This document shows positions 5,095 through 55,754 of a DNA stretch of 64,000 nucleotides, piece by piece. This stretch comes from Rummeliibacillus pycnus (GTDB taxonomy: Bacteria; Bacillota; Bacilli; Bacillales_A; Planococcaceae): the NCBI RefSeq assembly GCF_002884495.1, contig NZ_KZ614145.1:2432423-2496422 (forward strand), in the 5' to 3' direction. Position numbers and translations under genes: made by a program. Within the stretch, counting starts at the first letter, position 1, and each line of letters begins with the position of its first letter. The notes beneath the pieces are model-generated. The model was not told where the DNA came from, searched no databases, and saw only the letters and a program-made list of their open reading frames with translations.

Positions 5095-6255
5095 TTAGAG
5101 TGTTTCCACAAACGCTTCGAGACGATCCATACCTTCTTTTAGTTCTTCATCTGAATAGGCATAGGTGATACGCAAATAACCTTCCCCGTATGGTGTAAAA
5201 ACAGAGCCTGGGATTACCCCAACACCACCCTCTTTTCGTTTCATTAAACGGAGTGCAAATTCTTCAGATGTTAGGCCAAATTTTTTGATAGATGGGAAAA
5301 TGTAGAATGCACCGTTTGGTTTTTTCACTTCAATCCCCATTTTCACTAGACGATCATAGACATAATCGCGACGCTTAATATAGCTTTTATTCATCTCTTG
5401 TGGTGTATCCTTACAATTGGTTAATGCTTCGATGGCTGCATATTGACTAGGCAGTGCTGCACAGATTGCATTGAATGAATGAATTTTGGCAACTTCACCT
5501 ATTAATCTTGCATCAGCCATTAAGAAGCCTATACGCCAGCCAGTCATTGAATGAGATTTTGATAAACCATGAATTAAGAATAATTTATCTTTTAACTCTG
5601 TGTATGAACCAAATGAGCGATGTTCTCCAACAAATGTATTTTCACTGTAAATTTCATCTGAAATGACATAAATATCATGTTTTTTCAACACTTCTGCAAG
5701 TGCATCCATTTGTTCATGAGAAATAGTAGCACCAGTTGGGTTAGACGGGAAGTTAAATAATACCGCTTTTGTTTTTGGTGTGATTAATTTTTCTAAACGC
5801 TCAGCAGATGGTTGGAAATCTGTATCTGTTGTATCTAAGTAAACTGATTTAGCACCACAGTACGTAATAATTGGTTCATATCCTGAATAGATCGGTGCTG
5901 GTAAGATGATTTCGTCCCCTACTTCTAAGATCGTACGGAAAACAGAGTCAATCGCTTGTGTTGCTCCATTCGTTACTAGAATCTCATTTTCAGGTTTGTA
6001 GTGACAATTATATTTTTCTTCGAAGAAGGCGGCCACTGCTTTACGTAATTCGATTAAACCTGGATTAGCTGAGTACGTTGTTAAATTATTTTCAATCGCT
6101 CGAATCCCTGCTTGTTTTACTGCTTCAGGAGTTGGGAAATCTGGTTGACCGATTGTTAGGTTAATCGCATCTGGATAATTGACTAACTGATTTGAAAATT
6201 TACGAATACCTGGCAAGCCTAGTTTATCCATATGTGGGTTCATTGATAAAGACAT
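5095..6255 (-). CDS. patA: Aminotransferase class I/II, PatA-type (N-acetyl-LL-diaminopimelate aminotransferase)
   Basis: The 386-residue PLP-dependent fold-type I aminotransferase resembles B. subtilis PatA throughout (GIRKFSN, LTIGQPDFPTP, TNGATQAIDSVFRTIL, FPSNPTGAT, SDEIYSE). The PLP lysine is K233 in GLSKSHSMTGWRIGF, and the C-terminal GAFYIFPSIKKFGL and GEGYLRI segments are conserved. PatA converts N-acetyl-L,L-2,6-diaminopimelate semialdehyde intermediates in lysine and meso-DAP synthesis; related enzymes act on other amino acids, so the substrate is inferred. It is transcribed alone, away from the DnaA-box region, and ends at a bidirectional terminator shared with tagD. Confidence 0.88.
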   Translation of the reverse strand: MSLSMNPHMDKLGLPGIRKFSNQLVNYPDAINLTIGQPDFPTPEAVKQAGIRAIENNLTTYSANPGLIELRKAVAAFFEEKYNCHYKPENEILVTNGATQAIDSVFRTILEVGDEIILPAPIYSGYEPIITYCGAKSVYLDTTDTDFQPSAERLEKLITPKTKAVLFNFPSNPTGATISHEQMDALAEVLKKHDIYVISDEIYSENTFVGEHRSFGSYTELKDKLFLIHGLSKSHSMTGWRIGFLMADARLIGEVAKIHSFNAICAALPSQYAAIEALTNCKDTPQEMNKSYIKRRDYVYDRLVKMGIEVKKPNGAFYIFPSIKKFGLTSEEFALRLMKRKEGGVGVIPGSVFTPYGEGYLRITYAYSDEELKEGMDRLEAFVETL

Positions 6256-6395: not shown

Positions 6396-6645
6396 TGTGG
6401 ATAATCGGATTTTTATATTGAATGTTCAGAAATAAACCTTTTTTATATTTTTTTGAGTCTATTATGTTCGGAAATCGCCCAAAATTACAAATGAAAGCGA
6501 TATTTTCATAAAAATGTTTCGACAAATTTCAGCAATTCAACAAGTTGTGGATAAGTTTATACACAATTTCCACACCATTTTATAGAGTATTTCACATTTA
6601 TCCACACATGTTAATCACAATTTATCCACCGTTTCCTGTGGATAA
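6396..6645. promoter_or_regulatory. DnaA-box cluster upstream of sda
   Basis: Four perfect DnaA boxes TTATCCACA lie at 6396-6404 (-), 6546-6554 (-), 6598-6606 (+) and 6637-6645 (-). A consensus TTATACACA sits at 6557-6565 (+), and two one-mismatch boxes at 6611-6619 and 6622-6630 (+). Six of the seven sit within 100 bp. The cluster lies 124-373 bp before the sda start, in the 513-bp gap after patA. In B. subtilis, DnaA acts through boxes in the sda promoter, so the arrangement is functionally coherent. Confidence 0.9.
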
Positions 6646-6768
6646 ATGGCTGGTTGTCTTGTATAAAACTATTTGATAAATTAAATGTACATCTTAGCAA
6701 CTATTAATATATTCTTTCACTTTATATATTAGAACCGTGCTATTTTTTTCTTGGAGGTGAAAAATTCA

Positions 6769-6981
6769 ATGGAAACACTATCAGATGAATTATTAATCAA
6801 GGCCTACACTGACGCGAAAACTCATAATTTGAATTTAGATTTTATACATTTACTAGAAAATGAAATTCTACGGCGTATTTTGGTAAAGATGTTATCCGAA
6901 TCTAAATTAGAGGACATTTCAACTATTAAATCTTTTCCAATAGATTTTGATATAGTCAATGAATATTTTAACCTTGCATGA
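6769..6981 (+). CDS. sda: Sda-type sporulation checkpoint protein with C-terminal extension
   Basis: The 70-residue product starts METLSDELLIKAY and continues NLNLDFIHLLENEILRRIL, matching B. subtilis Sda (46 aa; LSDELL, LNRDFIELIENEIKRRSL) along its helical hairpin. Sda binds the DHp domain of sporulation kinases KinA/KinB and blocks Spo0F phosphorylation when replication initiation is disturbed or DNA is damaged. About 25 extra residues (KSFPIDFDIVNEYF region) extend beyond the usual end. The ATG at 6769 is chosen because GGAGGTG lies 8 nt upstream; an in-frame TTG at 6751 overlaps the ribosome site. The DnaA-box cluster upstream supports the identity. The function of the extension is unknown. 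Confidence 0.85.
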   Translation: METLSDELLIKAYTDAKTHNLNLDFIHLLENEILRRILVKMLSESKLEDISTIKSFPIDFDIVNEYFNLA

Positions 6982-53086: not shown

Positions 53087-54127
53087 TTATTGTTTTTGGT
53101 AATCCTTTGAATACCATTTGCCACCTGCAGATTTTTCAAGGCGATTCATAATAGCTGCACCGACGCCGTCCGTTGATGTAACAGTTGCTAACACAATATC
53201 TGCTGCAGTTGAATCACAAGCCCGTAATGCATGGAAAAGATTTGCAGCCATTTCTTCCTTTGAATCTCCCAATGTAAAGAACCAATTCGAAACTAGATGT
53301 GCAAAGCGTTGTGGTCCAAGTAACGCTACTTTGTGCCCTTGTTGTTGTAACTCTTTAATAGCTCGCGAAACCTGTTGTTCATTTTGTTCGATTAAGTATA
53401 CAGGCGCATTTGGTGCGTAATGTGTATACTTCATCCCAGGAGCGCGAGGTGCACCTGCTTTTTGTTCGATATGAGTGGGTTGTTCAACTGGACCAATAAC
53501 TTTTTCAAACATTTCTTTTGTAATAGCACCTGGACGTAGAATGACAGGTGTTTCTAATGTAAGATCTATGACAGTGGATTCAACACCGATACCAGTTGCT
53601 CCTCCATCTAAGATCATTGGAATTTCCCCTGCTAAGTCTTGTTCAACATGAATTCCTTCTGTTGGACTAGGTTTTCCACTACGATTGGCACTTGGAGCAG
53701 CTACCGGCTTTCCGAGTTTTTGTAGAAGTCTTATTGCAACTGGATGGTTAGGCATTCGAATACCAACTGTATCAAGACCTGCAGTCACACTCGGTGCAAG
53801 GATATTTGGTTTTACTTTGAAAATAATCGTTAATGGCCCTGGCCAAAATGCCTCCATGCACTTTCTCGCTTTATCTGAAATATAATCCACATATTTTTCA
53901 AGTTCAGCAAAAGTACCTATATGGACAATCAGAGGATTATCTGAAGGTCTTCCTTTTGCGGCATAGATTTTTTTAACTGCTGATTCATTTGTTGCTACAG
54001 CCCCAAGGCCATAAACCGTCTCTGTCGGAAAAGCAACTAGCTCTCCATTATTTAACAAATCCACAGCTTGTGAATAACTTTTTTCTGAATCCACATTGTT
54101 ATCCACAATGAAACGTTGTGTTTCCAT
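53087..54127 (-). CDS. ywlC: Threonylcarbamoyl-AMP synthase (Sua5/YwlC type)
   Basis: 346 residues. The N-terminal YrdC domain (about 15-205: VAFPTETVYGLGAVATNE, AAKGRPSDNPLIVHI, WPGPLTIIF, RMPNHPVA, APSANRSGKPSPTEG) makes threonylcarbamoyl-AMP for tRNA t6A. A Sua5 C-terminal domain (HYAPNAPVYLIE onward) follows. GGGAGG lies before the ATG. Its 5' end lies within a DnaA-box cluster. Confidence 0.96.
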   Translation of the reverse strand: METQRFIVDNNVDSEKSYSQAVDLLNNGELVAFPTETVYGLGAVATNESAVKKIYAAKGRPSDNPLIVHIGTFAELEKYVDYISDKARKCMEAFWPGPLTIIFKVKPNILAPSVTAGLDTVGIRMPNHPVAIRLLQKLGKPVAAPSANRSGKPSPTEGIHVEQDLAGEIPMILDGGATGIGVESTVIDLTLETPVILRPGAITKEMFEKVIGPVEQPTHIEQKAGAPRAPGMKYTHYAPNAPVYLIEQNEQQVSRAIKELQQQGHKVALLGPQRFAHLVSNWFFTLGDSKEEMAANLFHALRACDSTAADIVLATVTSTDGVGAAIMNRLEKSAGGKWYSKDYQKQ

Positions 54128-54226
54128 GTTATTTCCTCCCTATATATAAGAGTTTTCAGAAAGTTATGCACAATTTGTTGATAACATTGTAAAAATTGTG
54201 GACAATTTACCAAATATTGTGGGTAA
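54069..54226. promoter_or_regulatory. DnaA-box cluster at the tsaC-spoIIR junction
   Basis: Consensus boxes TTATTCACA (54069-54077, -), TTATCCACA (54099-54107, +) and TTATGCACA (54164-54172, +), with one-mismatch boxes at 54176-54184, 54197-54205 and 54218-54226 (all -). A further perfect box lies inside spoIIR at 54490-54498 (-). A DnaA-bound cluster at ywlC is known from B. subtilis. Confidence 0.85.
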
Positions 54227-54228
54227 CT

Positions 54229-54840
54229 CTAATCTTTAAAAAGACTCTTAAACCATTCAACTATAAAAAATTTCGGCTTTTCTTCTTCTTCTTCATTTTC
54301 TTTCTTGGAATCTTCCTCACGATAGCAAACTTTTGGAAATAAACCGCACCACCAATTATCTCCCTTGCCTGTTCCAATTGTCACGACGATTGCTTGATAT
54401 TTATCTTGTGCATACATTTTATAATCATTGCGTTTTGGTGGAAATAATGCTTTCGTAGTTGTGATGTTTATCTTCTCTTTTTCCATTTCTGTGGATAACT
54501 TACTTTTAATTTGGTTTTCAATTGTTGATAAGTTCAACTCTGTAGATGAATTTTGAATCGCATTTTCTAGGATTGGTTTTATTTTTTCTACCAGTTGATG
54601 CTTATATTGCTGATCTGCTGCAGAATTACTATTGGCAATGATACGAAATCTTGGTTGTTCTAATTCTGTACTATATTGTTGAGTTAAAATCCCCTGTATG
54701 ATCAGTAATACTAACTGTATAAGTAAAAGTGATGTTATAAATTGCAAAAGTATATTCACTTGTGATTGTTTTTTTGGTTGTTTAATAGTGTAGTAAGATA
54801 ATTCTTGTGGTTGTTTAATAGCATTATAATCTTCTATCAT
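54229..54840 (-). CDS. spoIIR: Stage II sporulation protein SpoIIR
   Basis: 203 residues. A cytoplasmic N-terminus and a membrane/signal segment (ILLQFITSLLLIQLVLLIIQGIL) are followed by the SpoIIR domain: RFRIIANSNSAADQQYKHQLVEKIK and TIGTGKGDNWWCGLFPKVCY. SpoIIR is made in the forespore and triggers SpoIIGA to process pro-sigma-E in the mother cell. Start ATG 54840 lies 6 nt after GGAGGGGGAG. The highly acidic C-terminal stretch (ENEEEEEKP) is notable. A perfect DnaA box lies within the gene. Confidence 0.9.
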   Translation of the reverse strand: MIEDYNAIKQPQELSYYTIKQPKKQSQVNILLQFITSLLLIQLVLLIIQGILTQQYSTELEQPRFRIIANSNSAADQQYKHQLVEKIKPILENAIQNSSTELNLSTIENQIKSKLSTEMEKEKINITTTKALFPPKRNDYKMYAQDKYQAIVVTIGTGKGDNWWCGLFPKVCYREEDSKKENEEEEEKPKFFIVEWFKSLFKD

Positions 54841-54887
54841 TTTGTACTCCCCCTCCATGACTCTATCATGGCCAAAGAGATTACTAT

Positions 54888-55754
54888 TTATTCACCTAAC
54901 TCACAAAAAACCATACGATTTTTTCCATTCATATCTTGTAAAATATCAATTTTCGCTTGTGGAAAACTTTCTTTAAACAGTTTAGCCACTGCTGGTCCCT
55001 GTGCATAACCTATCTCTACGCCTATAAAACTAGGTTTCGTCATCAATTTTGGTAGATTCTTTGCTAGTCTTTTATAAAGTGCTAGTCCATCCTCATCTGC
55101 AAAAAGTGCTGTGTGCGGTTCATGATCAAGTACAACTTCTGACATATCTTTTGCTTCGTCGTATGCAATATACGGTGGATTGGAAAGTATAACTTGCCAT
55201 TTCTGTTGTTCAATCGGTACTGTTAAATCTCCCTCTTCAAAATGAATATCTGCTCCAAGTATTTCTGCATTTTTCTTCGCTACGCTTAATGCATCCGGTG
55301 AAATATCAGTTGCAGTTACAAATAAAGAAGGTATCTCCTTTTTCATTGTGATCGCTATTGCACCACTCCCAGTACCAATATCAGCTAGTTGTATGGCAGG
55401 CTTATCTCCAAAAATACGTTTAATACGTTTAGTGGCTTCAACAATCAGCTCTTCTGTTTCAGGTCTTGGGATCAGTACAGACTCGTTAACTATAAATGTT
55501 CGTCCATAAAACTCTTCCTTGCCTATAATGTACTGAATAGGCATCCCACTTGCATGGAATTCAACCATTTTCCAAAATACCTGATTGTCATCCTCTGTCA
55601 TTTCATCATGCATGCTTGTTAGTAAACCAGTGTATGATTTTTTTAATACATGTTGTAAAAGTAATCTTGCCGCTACTTCTTCTCGACCATTATCCCGTAA
55701 AAAAGAAGAAGCCCCATTCAGGGCCTCATAAACAAATTTAAAGTGCTGTGTCAT
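54888..55754 (-). CDS. prmC: Peptide chain release factor N5-glutamine methyltransferase
   Basis: 288 residues. It methylates the GGQ glutamine of release factors, the substrate being the product of the overlapping upstream gene. SAM-binding [16 protein letters not shown] and the NPPY motif in [12 protein letters not shown] are intact; the N-terminal helical domain is present. Its start lies 17 nt inside prfA. Standard prfA-prmC pair. Confidence 0.95.

Follow-up and report, generated by a model that had tools for sequence, protein, structure and literature searches.

The sda locus and its DnaA boxes

The window, by which we mean the whole stretch of 64,000 nucleotides analysed here, carries an sda gene on the plus strand (6769..6981) whose 70-aa product has a C-terminal extension. 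The original prediction had placed a gene for Sda directly after a cluster of DnaA boxes, and this assignment is borne out by a match to PF08970 (E 1.6e-15; 57 bits, above the curated cut-off of 22.6), from which inhibition of KinA/KinB by the product is predicted. Structure matches were obtained with 1pv0 (E 1.9e-8), 3fyr and 3d36, and a search of the protein against NCBIfam gave no match. The extension measures about 24 aa in the Sda of the window's genus (6895-6978 in the window; loci L025 and L038 are further examples) and ends in NLA in three of four species. A divergent gene resembling aminotransferase A lies on the minus strand (5095..6255), its best NCBIfam match, PRK07683, falling below the cut-off of that model. 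This neighbour was considered as the owner of the boxes and rejected, as the longest upstream ORF, which is what was compared between genera and is not always the nearest gene, changes from genus to genus and the module stays with sda.

A motif scan of the window located perfect TTATCCACA boxes at 6396 (-), 6546 (-), 6598 (+) and 6637 (-), and the variants TTATACACA at 6557 (+) and TTATCCACC at 6622 (+), the consensus TTATNCACA being that of PMC4447404 (this and the other papers are cited from excerpts). A further site, TTAATCACA at 6611-6619, has one mismatch to TTATNCACA and two to TTATCCACA. When it is counted there are six boxes in the 100 bp of 6546-6645 and seven in 6396-6645, directly upstream of sda; these are the numbers originally given, and they hold provided that TTAATCACA is scored against TTATNCACA. 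Two of the boxes had been described as having one mismatch, which is correct for TTATCCACC, while the second, probably TTAATCACA, qualifies against TTATNCACA but not against TTATCCACA. Counting only sites within one mismatch of TTATCCACA leaves five boxes per 100 bp and six per 250 bp. Dinucleotide shuffling of the window, repeated 200 times, gave at most three boxes per 100 bp and three per 250 bp.

We refer to the boxes by letter. Box A (TTATCCACA, 6546..6554, -) and box B (TTATACACA, 6557..6565, +) have starts 11 bp apart. They are followed by box D (TTATCCACA, 6598..6606, +), which is present as TTATNCACA in three of four same-genus loci, by box E (TTAATCACA, 6611..6619, +) and by box F (TTATCCACC, 6622..6630, +), the last identified by the motif scan and in an alignment of eight loci. 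Box G (TTATCCACA, 6637..6645, -) lies 91 bp from A, directly before a putative promoter. Boxes A and G are invariant in the eight-sequence alignment, and the best-kept boxes are those at both array ends, A/B and F/G. The outlying box (TTATCCACA, 6396..6404, -) falls outside the conserved core of the control region (about 6517-6682) and has a counterpart at the same place in none of the three other same-genus loci. Box density at this locus is mostly inherited promoter design, with the box at 6396 alone seeming local.

The putative promoter consists of a -35 element, TTGTCT (6654..6659, +), and an extended -10 element, TGATAAATT (6674..6682, +), separated by a 17-bp spacer and both at conserved places. 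We call it from this conservation only. A generic promoter scan gave seven hits against 6.4 in shuffles, which is no excess, and the conserved sda promoter was absent from its output.

Distribution of DnaA boxes across the genome

The genome is a single contig of 3,851,193 bp with 79 TTATCCACA and 246 TTATNCACA sites, of which 235 (79+100+56) were placed, the 11 TTATKCACA sites beyond about 3.55 Mb being left out. Among the 235 placed boxes the sda group, with five TTATNCACA in 250 bp (four of them perfect), is the densest outside oriC and second only to the region upstream of dnaA, which has six; the third and fourth groups have four each. On these placed boxes its density is well above that of the rest of the genome. 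The genome-wide motif scan that the original prediction had asked for therefore places the sda group ahead of all other non-oriC groups, and the equal density in many intergenic regions that would have spoken against the prediction was not encountered on these 235 boxes. Family models confirmed the identity of both dnaA and dnaN. Perfect boxes gather near oriC, with 57 of the 79 lying within 500 kb against 20.5 expected; without the segment 2,911-2,916 kb the figure is 45 of 67.

Other box groups are found at jag-trmE, htrA-rlmH, tsaD-ABC-F and tsaC. Presumably family names such as rlmH and tsaC pair with the B. subtilis gene names yydA, ywlC, gcp/ydiF and trmE/jag, and we take these four groups to match genes of the B. 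subtilis DnaA regions so named. The regions described in that species include trmE/jag, yydA, gcp/ydiF and ywlC (PMC4447404, excerpt). One such group lies within the window itself, at 54069-55008, with two perfect boxes plus variants; it spans the beginning of tsaC/ywlC (53087-54127, -) together with a SpoIIR-like gene (54229-54858, -) and corresponds to the B. subtilis ywlC DnaA region.

Conservation of the array among Bacilli

A related-locus search with Sda returned three loci only, and whole genomes were used in its place. We compared 141 sda-like loci, among the matches listed: all 72 listed places from a search of 151 genomes of the window's family, and 69 from a search of 398 genomes of the class, in which 163 genomes had an Sda match. 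The 69 comprise 29 newly fetched loci and 40 picked for family spread, most repeats of f3g44 and f22g40 being left out. The array was defined as two minus-strand boxes (at most one mismatch each), sought at spacings of 88-92 bp in the 450 bp that precede the gene. By this definition it is present in 102 of the 141 loci, the boxes being 90 bp apart in 57 loci, 91 bp in 31, 89 bp in 11 and 92 bp in three; one locus with 139 bp of upstream sequence only (L109) was scored as a miss. The loci are related by descent, so that these counts, and those for the Spo0A and LexA sites below, are not independent.

In the window's family the array is found in 56/72 loci and in 55 of the 58 genomes with an Sda match. 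The 16 family loci that lack it are divergent or second copies of Sda; none has a TTATNCACA or a GAACN4GTTC within 450 bp, and three have a core of the Spo0A box (at -447, -425 and -129). The 23 array-less loci of other families show other arrangements, with at least one TTATNCACA in 20, a Spo0A-box core in 14 and GAACN4GTTC in 11. Judged by its arrangement, the box cluster is the known sda control module, kept across many spore-forming bacilli.

A second DnaA array occurs about 260-275 bp further upstream in 9/16 array loci of genus g5 (L001, L002, L007, L008, L010, L014, L017, L019 and L021). These second arrays are accompanied by a Spo0A-box core in 6/9 cases and by a LexA site in 0/9. One locus of genus g3 (L061) also has a second box pair.

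A candidate Spo0A box upstream of the array

At 6517..6526, on the minus strand, lies a candidate Spo0A box (0A box), TTTCGACAAA as read on the plus strand and TTTGTCGAAA on the minus; the window has no other copy of this 10-mer. The published core of the Spo0A site, TGTCGAA (PMC3485338, excerpt), is the reverse complement of TTCGACA, and its presence in the control region marks sda as a candidate Spo0A target. In the window the core begins 28 bp ahead of box A. Across the comparison set, 81/102 array loci, from 28 of 37 genera, have TTCGACA 26-29 bp upstream of box A, where a background rate taken from the same regions would predict 0.09 loci at those offsets. All 81 cores have one orientation, and 67 of them extend to the full 10-mer. 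Conservation drops around the box, apart from A/T tracts. We assign the site to sda because the longest upstream ORF varies by genus.

The exact core is absent from offsets 26-29 in the remaining 21 of 102 array loci; six of these, all in genus g3, have a core 16 bp before. In family f3 the core is missing from 7/7 array loci, and the array and the LexA site are kept.

Spo0A binds tandem boxes with a 10-bp period. A weaker half-site scored best at +10 of the 51 offsets examined, with a mean of 2.67 of 6 against 1.51 (s.d. 0.44). None of 299 permuted motifs reached 2.67; as the best of them came to 2.63, however, the half-site at +10 gives weak support.

The genome carries spo0A, and the TTTCGACAAA 10-mer also precedes its AbrB gene (by 251 bp) and its SpoVT gene (by 14 bp). 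Of these, abrB is a classical Spo0A target. Binding of Spo0A to the abrB promoter is described in PMC3485338 (excerpt). An excess of the 10-mer over the whole genome was tried as a further line of support and failed, as the 10-mer occurs at 24 places and the reversed motif at 29; eight of the 24 lie within ORFs of at least 100 aa. The case for a Spo0A box is accordingly one of position and conservation. About 165 bp separate the candidate box from the putative start downstream of it, which is far for classical activation or repression. In the literature searched, which did not extend to Burkholder 2001, Molle 2003 and Okumura 2012, the regulators of sda encountered were DnaA and LexA, and Spo0A was not described at its promoter, though a prior report is possible.

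Among seven other DnaA groups examined, two have Spo0A-box cores within 300 bp. These cores lie by the rlmH and gcp/ydiF groups (L084, about 1955, and L087, about 2436, respectively), and chance could account for them. Elsewhere in the genome a perfect DnaA box and a TTTCGACAAA within an ORF have starts 34 bp apart (G000:C1:172048-172091). A short ORF (open frame 118 aa; G000:C1:525175-525447, L167) encodes a Spo0A C-terminal DNA-binding domain, the full spo0A being separate at 502056 (open frame 267 aa); the product of such an ORF could compete at 0A boxes.

Loss of the LexA operator

In 86/102 array loci a GAACN4GTTC operator overlaps the putative -35 element, its start lying 11-12 bp past that of box G. 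Its place in the window is occupied by a decayed sequence, GGCTGGTTGTCT (6648..6659), and no match to GAACN4GTTC with three or fewer mismatches is found in 6641-6700, so that the window has no recognisable SOS operator at the sda promoter. The operator is present in none of the four array loci of the window's genus (g1) and in none of the four of g6, read as Viridibacillus. It occurs in 48/56 array loci of the family, or 48/48 once these two genera are set aside, and in 38/46 of other families. Despite its decay, the -35-like TTGTCT and the extended -10 TGATAAATT are kept.

Altered LexA specificity was considered as the cause of the missing operator and is not favoured, since near-consensus boxes (CGAATGTTTGTTCG, CGAACACTTGTTTT and others) precede the genome's own lexA. 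Over the genome as a whole, GAACN4GTTC is found 29 times and the reversed motif 39 times, which is no excess. In B. subtilis sda is repressed by LexA (PMC11925247, excerpt). As the operator has decayed in this genus, sda here probably answers to replication state and not directly to SOS. Loss of the site in one lineage provides a natural experiment that separates the damage input from the replication input.

Proposed regulation of sda

Sites, their order, their spacing and their conservation are read from the DNA directly, with boxes A/B at one end of the array, F/G at the other, and the array adjoining the putative sigma-A promoter. We consider it likely that the region is an sda control module composed of the DnaA array, the promoter and Spo0A feedback, without LexA input. 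Within it, the most likely course of events is that ATP-DnaA activates sda and that Spo0A~P feeds back. On the model of B. subtilis, ATP-DnaA would load cooperatively along the array, box G would set DnaA beside RNA polymerase, and sda would be activated when initiation-competent DnaA is plentiful. Sda would then block the sporulation kinases and hence the phosphorylation of Spo0A; in B. subtilis Sda blocks the kinases that feed Spo0A (PMC5295017, excerpt). Spo0A~P, in turn, could bind the 0A box and affect either promoter output or the loading of DnaA; in the simplest case it would hinder DnaA from loading at boxes A/B. Rising Spo0A~P would in that case turn off its own inhibitor, and Sda and Spo0A~P, being mutually inhibitory, would form a switch by which the cell becomes committed as soon as Spo0A~P goes up. 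The conserved 0A box beside the array suggests such a direct feedback loop between Sda and Spo0A.

Extended beyond the window, we lean towards the view that in most array-bearing Bacilli genera (28/37) Spo0A~P regulates sda directly, by way of a 0A box at a fixed place ahead of the DnaA array. The promoter would then read DnaA, LexA and Spo0A~P and sustain a direct feedback loop between Sda and Spo0A~P, with the damage input lost in the window's genus and g6 and the other two kept. By what means a bacillus makes a sharp choice between a replication round and sporulation is still being worked out. If the proposal is true, the conserved Spo0A site would close the loop between a checkpoint protein and its target, and a Spo0A site at sda predicts bistability or pulsing.

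Three other accounts were weighed. It is possible, though rather unlikely, that only DnaA matters here, the locus being an ordinary B. subtilis-type sda promoter and TTTCGACAAA an inherited accessory of the array, such as a bend, a phasing element or the site of another protein. DnaA control is established in B. subtilis (PMC4447404, excerpt), 0A cores lie near two of the seven other DnaA groups as well, and the 10-mer shows no genome-wide excess. However, the site matches the published core TGTCGAA exactly (PMC3485338, excerpt), the identical 10-mer stands before abrB and spoVT, a weak second half-site follows 10 bp on, and the array loci of f3 are without the core (7/7), so the array does not need the box. 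The sign of the feedback has a serious rival in its own right: Spo0A~P may use the 0A box to activate sda, in which case the feedback would be negative, with pulses of Spo0A~P, and there would be no mutual inhibition. Replication-linked pulsing of Spo0A~P, with Sda among its controls, is reported for B. subtilis, yet deletion of sda leaves the pulsing running (both PMC5295017, excerpt). The location of the 0A site upstream of the putative promoter would suit activation, but the roughly 165 bp between it and the putative start are a long way for contact with RNA polymerase, and the sign of regulation is unreadable from sequence; we regard activation as unlikely.

A role mainly as a DnaA reservoir, with control of sda secondary, appears improbable to us. 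The original prediction had suggested that the region might serve as a reservoir in addition to controlling sda, and its rank as the second densest group among the 235 placed boxes agrees with this, as do the second upstream arrays in 9/16 array loci of g5, none of which has a LexA site. Clusters in B. subtilis restrain initiation, and removal of six non-oriC clusters there leads to early initiation (PMC5295017, PMC13220808, excerpts). Against a primary reservoir function, the array keeps a fixed geometry relative to the putative promoter and gene, and the group offers about seven boxes only, compared with 79 perfect boxes genome-wide. Roughly 10-fold overproduction of DnaA proceeds without over-initiation (PMC13220808, excerpt), and the excerpts of both PMC5295017 and PMC13220808 also carry statements against sequestration. 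The sda group nonetheless probably binds some DnaA away from oriC, as it is one of several groups kept at the genes that have them in B. subtilis, and sequestration by sda and its sister groups together is plausible. The preferred reading remains that of a promoter activated by ATP-DnaA with feedback from Spo0A~P. DnaA control of sda, as originally proposed, is upheld by the array geometry and the B. subtilis precedent, although a Spo0A box and the loss of the LexA operator had been overlooked.

Comparison with known systems

A DnaA-activated sda promoter is already known, and what sets the window apart is the conserved Spo0A box together with the lost LexA operator. The closest likeness is to the B. 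subtilis sda promoter, in array geometry, promoter layout and Sda family. A B. subtilis-type locus in the comparison set (G368) encodes an Sda identical to 1pv0 over 46/46 residues; its A and G boxes are 91 bp apart, exactly as in the window, its 0A core lies 29 bp upstream and its LexA site 11 bp past the start of box G. In B. subtilis itself sda is activated by DnaA (PMC4447404, excerpt). Since the geometry is common to the window and a locus whose Sda is identical to 1pv0, and given this activation, DnaA control of sda here is well supported by analogy.

The B. subtilis sda promoter has eight DnaA sites, prefers ATP-DnaA and needs particular box pairs: at the lowest DnaA concentration binding depends on boxes 4-7, at the highest boxes 1-2 or 6-7 are enough, and mutation of box 1 or 2 lowers sda expression. 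Recovery of sda promoter DNA was about 50-fold higher with ATP-DnaA than with ADP-DnaA at 55 nM (all PMC4447404, excerpt). By inference, we equate A/B and F/G with B. subtilis boxes 1-2 and 6-7. The window differs from B. subtilis in the decay of the LexA operator, in the C-terminal extension of its Sda, and in its divergent neighbour, an aminotransferase gene in place of the ORFs of most Bacillaceae-type loci, which we take to be yqeG-yqeH. It also differs in chromosomal position. Here sda (G000:C1:2438818) is 475 kb from oriC (about 2913400), or about 25% along the replication arm, so that after initiation the gene would be duplicated much sooner than in B. subtilis, where the gene is about 75% along (2,620,051 of about 4.2 Mb; PMC4447404, excerpt).

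The non-oriC clusters of B. subtilis are matched here by groups at sda, ywlC, gcp/ydiF, yydA (rlmH) and trmE/jag; in contrast, no group was recognised at an equivalent of ywcI/vpr among the groups examined. The E. coli datA locus is likewise a cluster of DnaA boxes away from oriC, and it negatively regulates initiation, yet it differs in working with IHF and in promoting DnaA-ATP hydrolysis (PMC5295017, excerpt).
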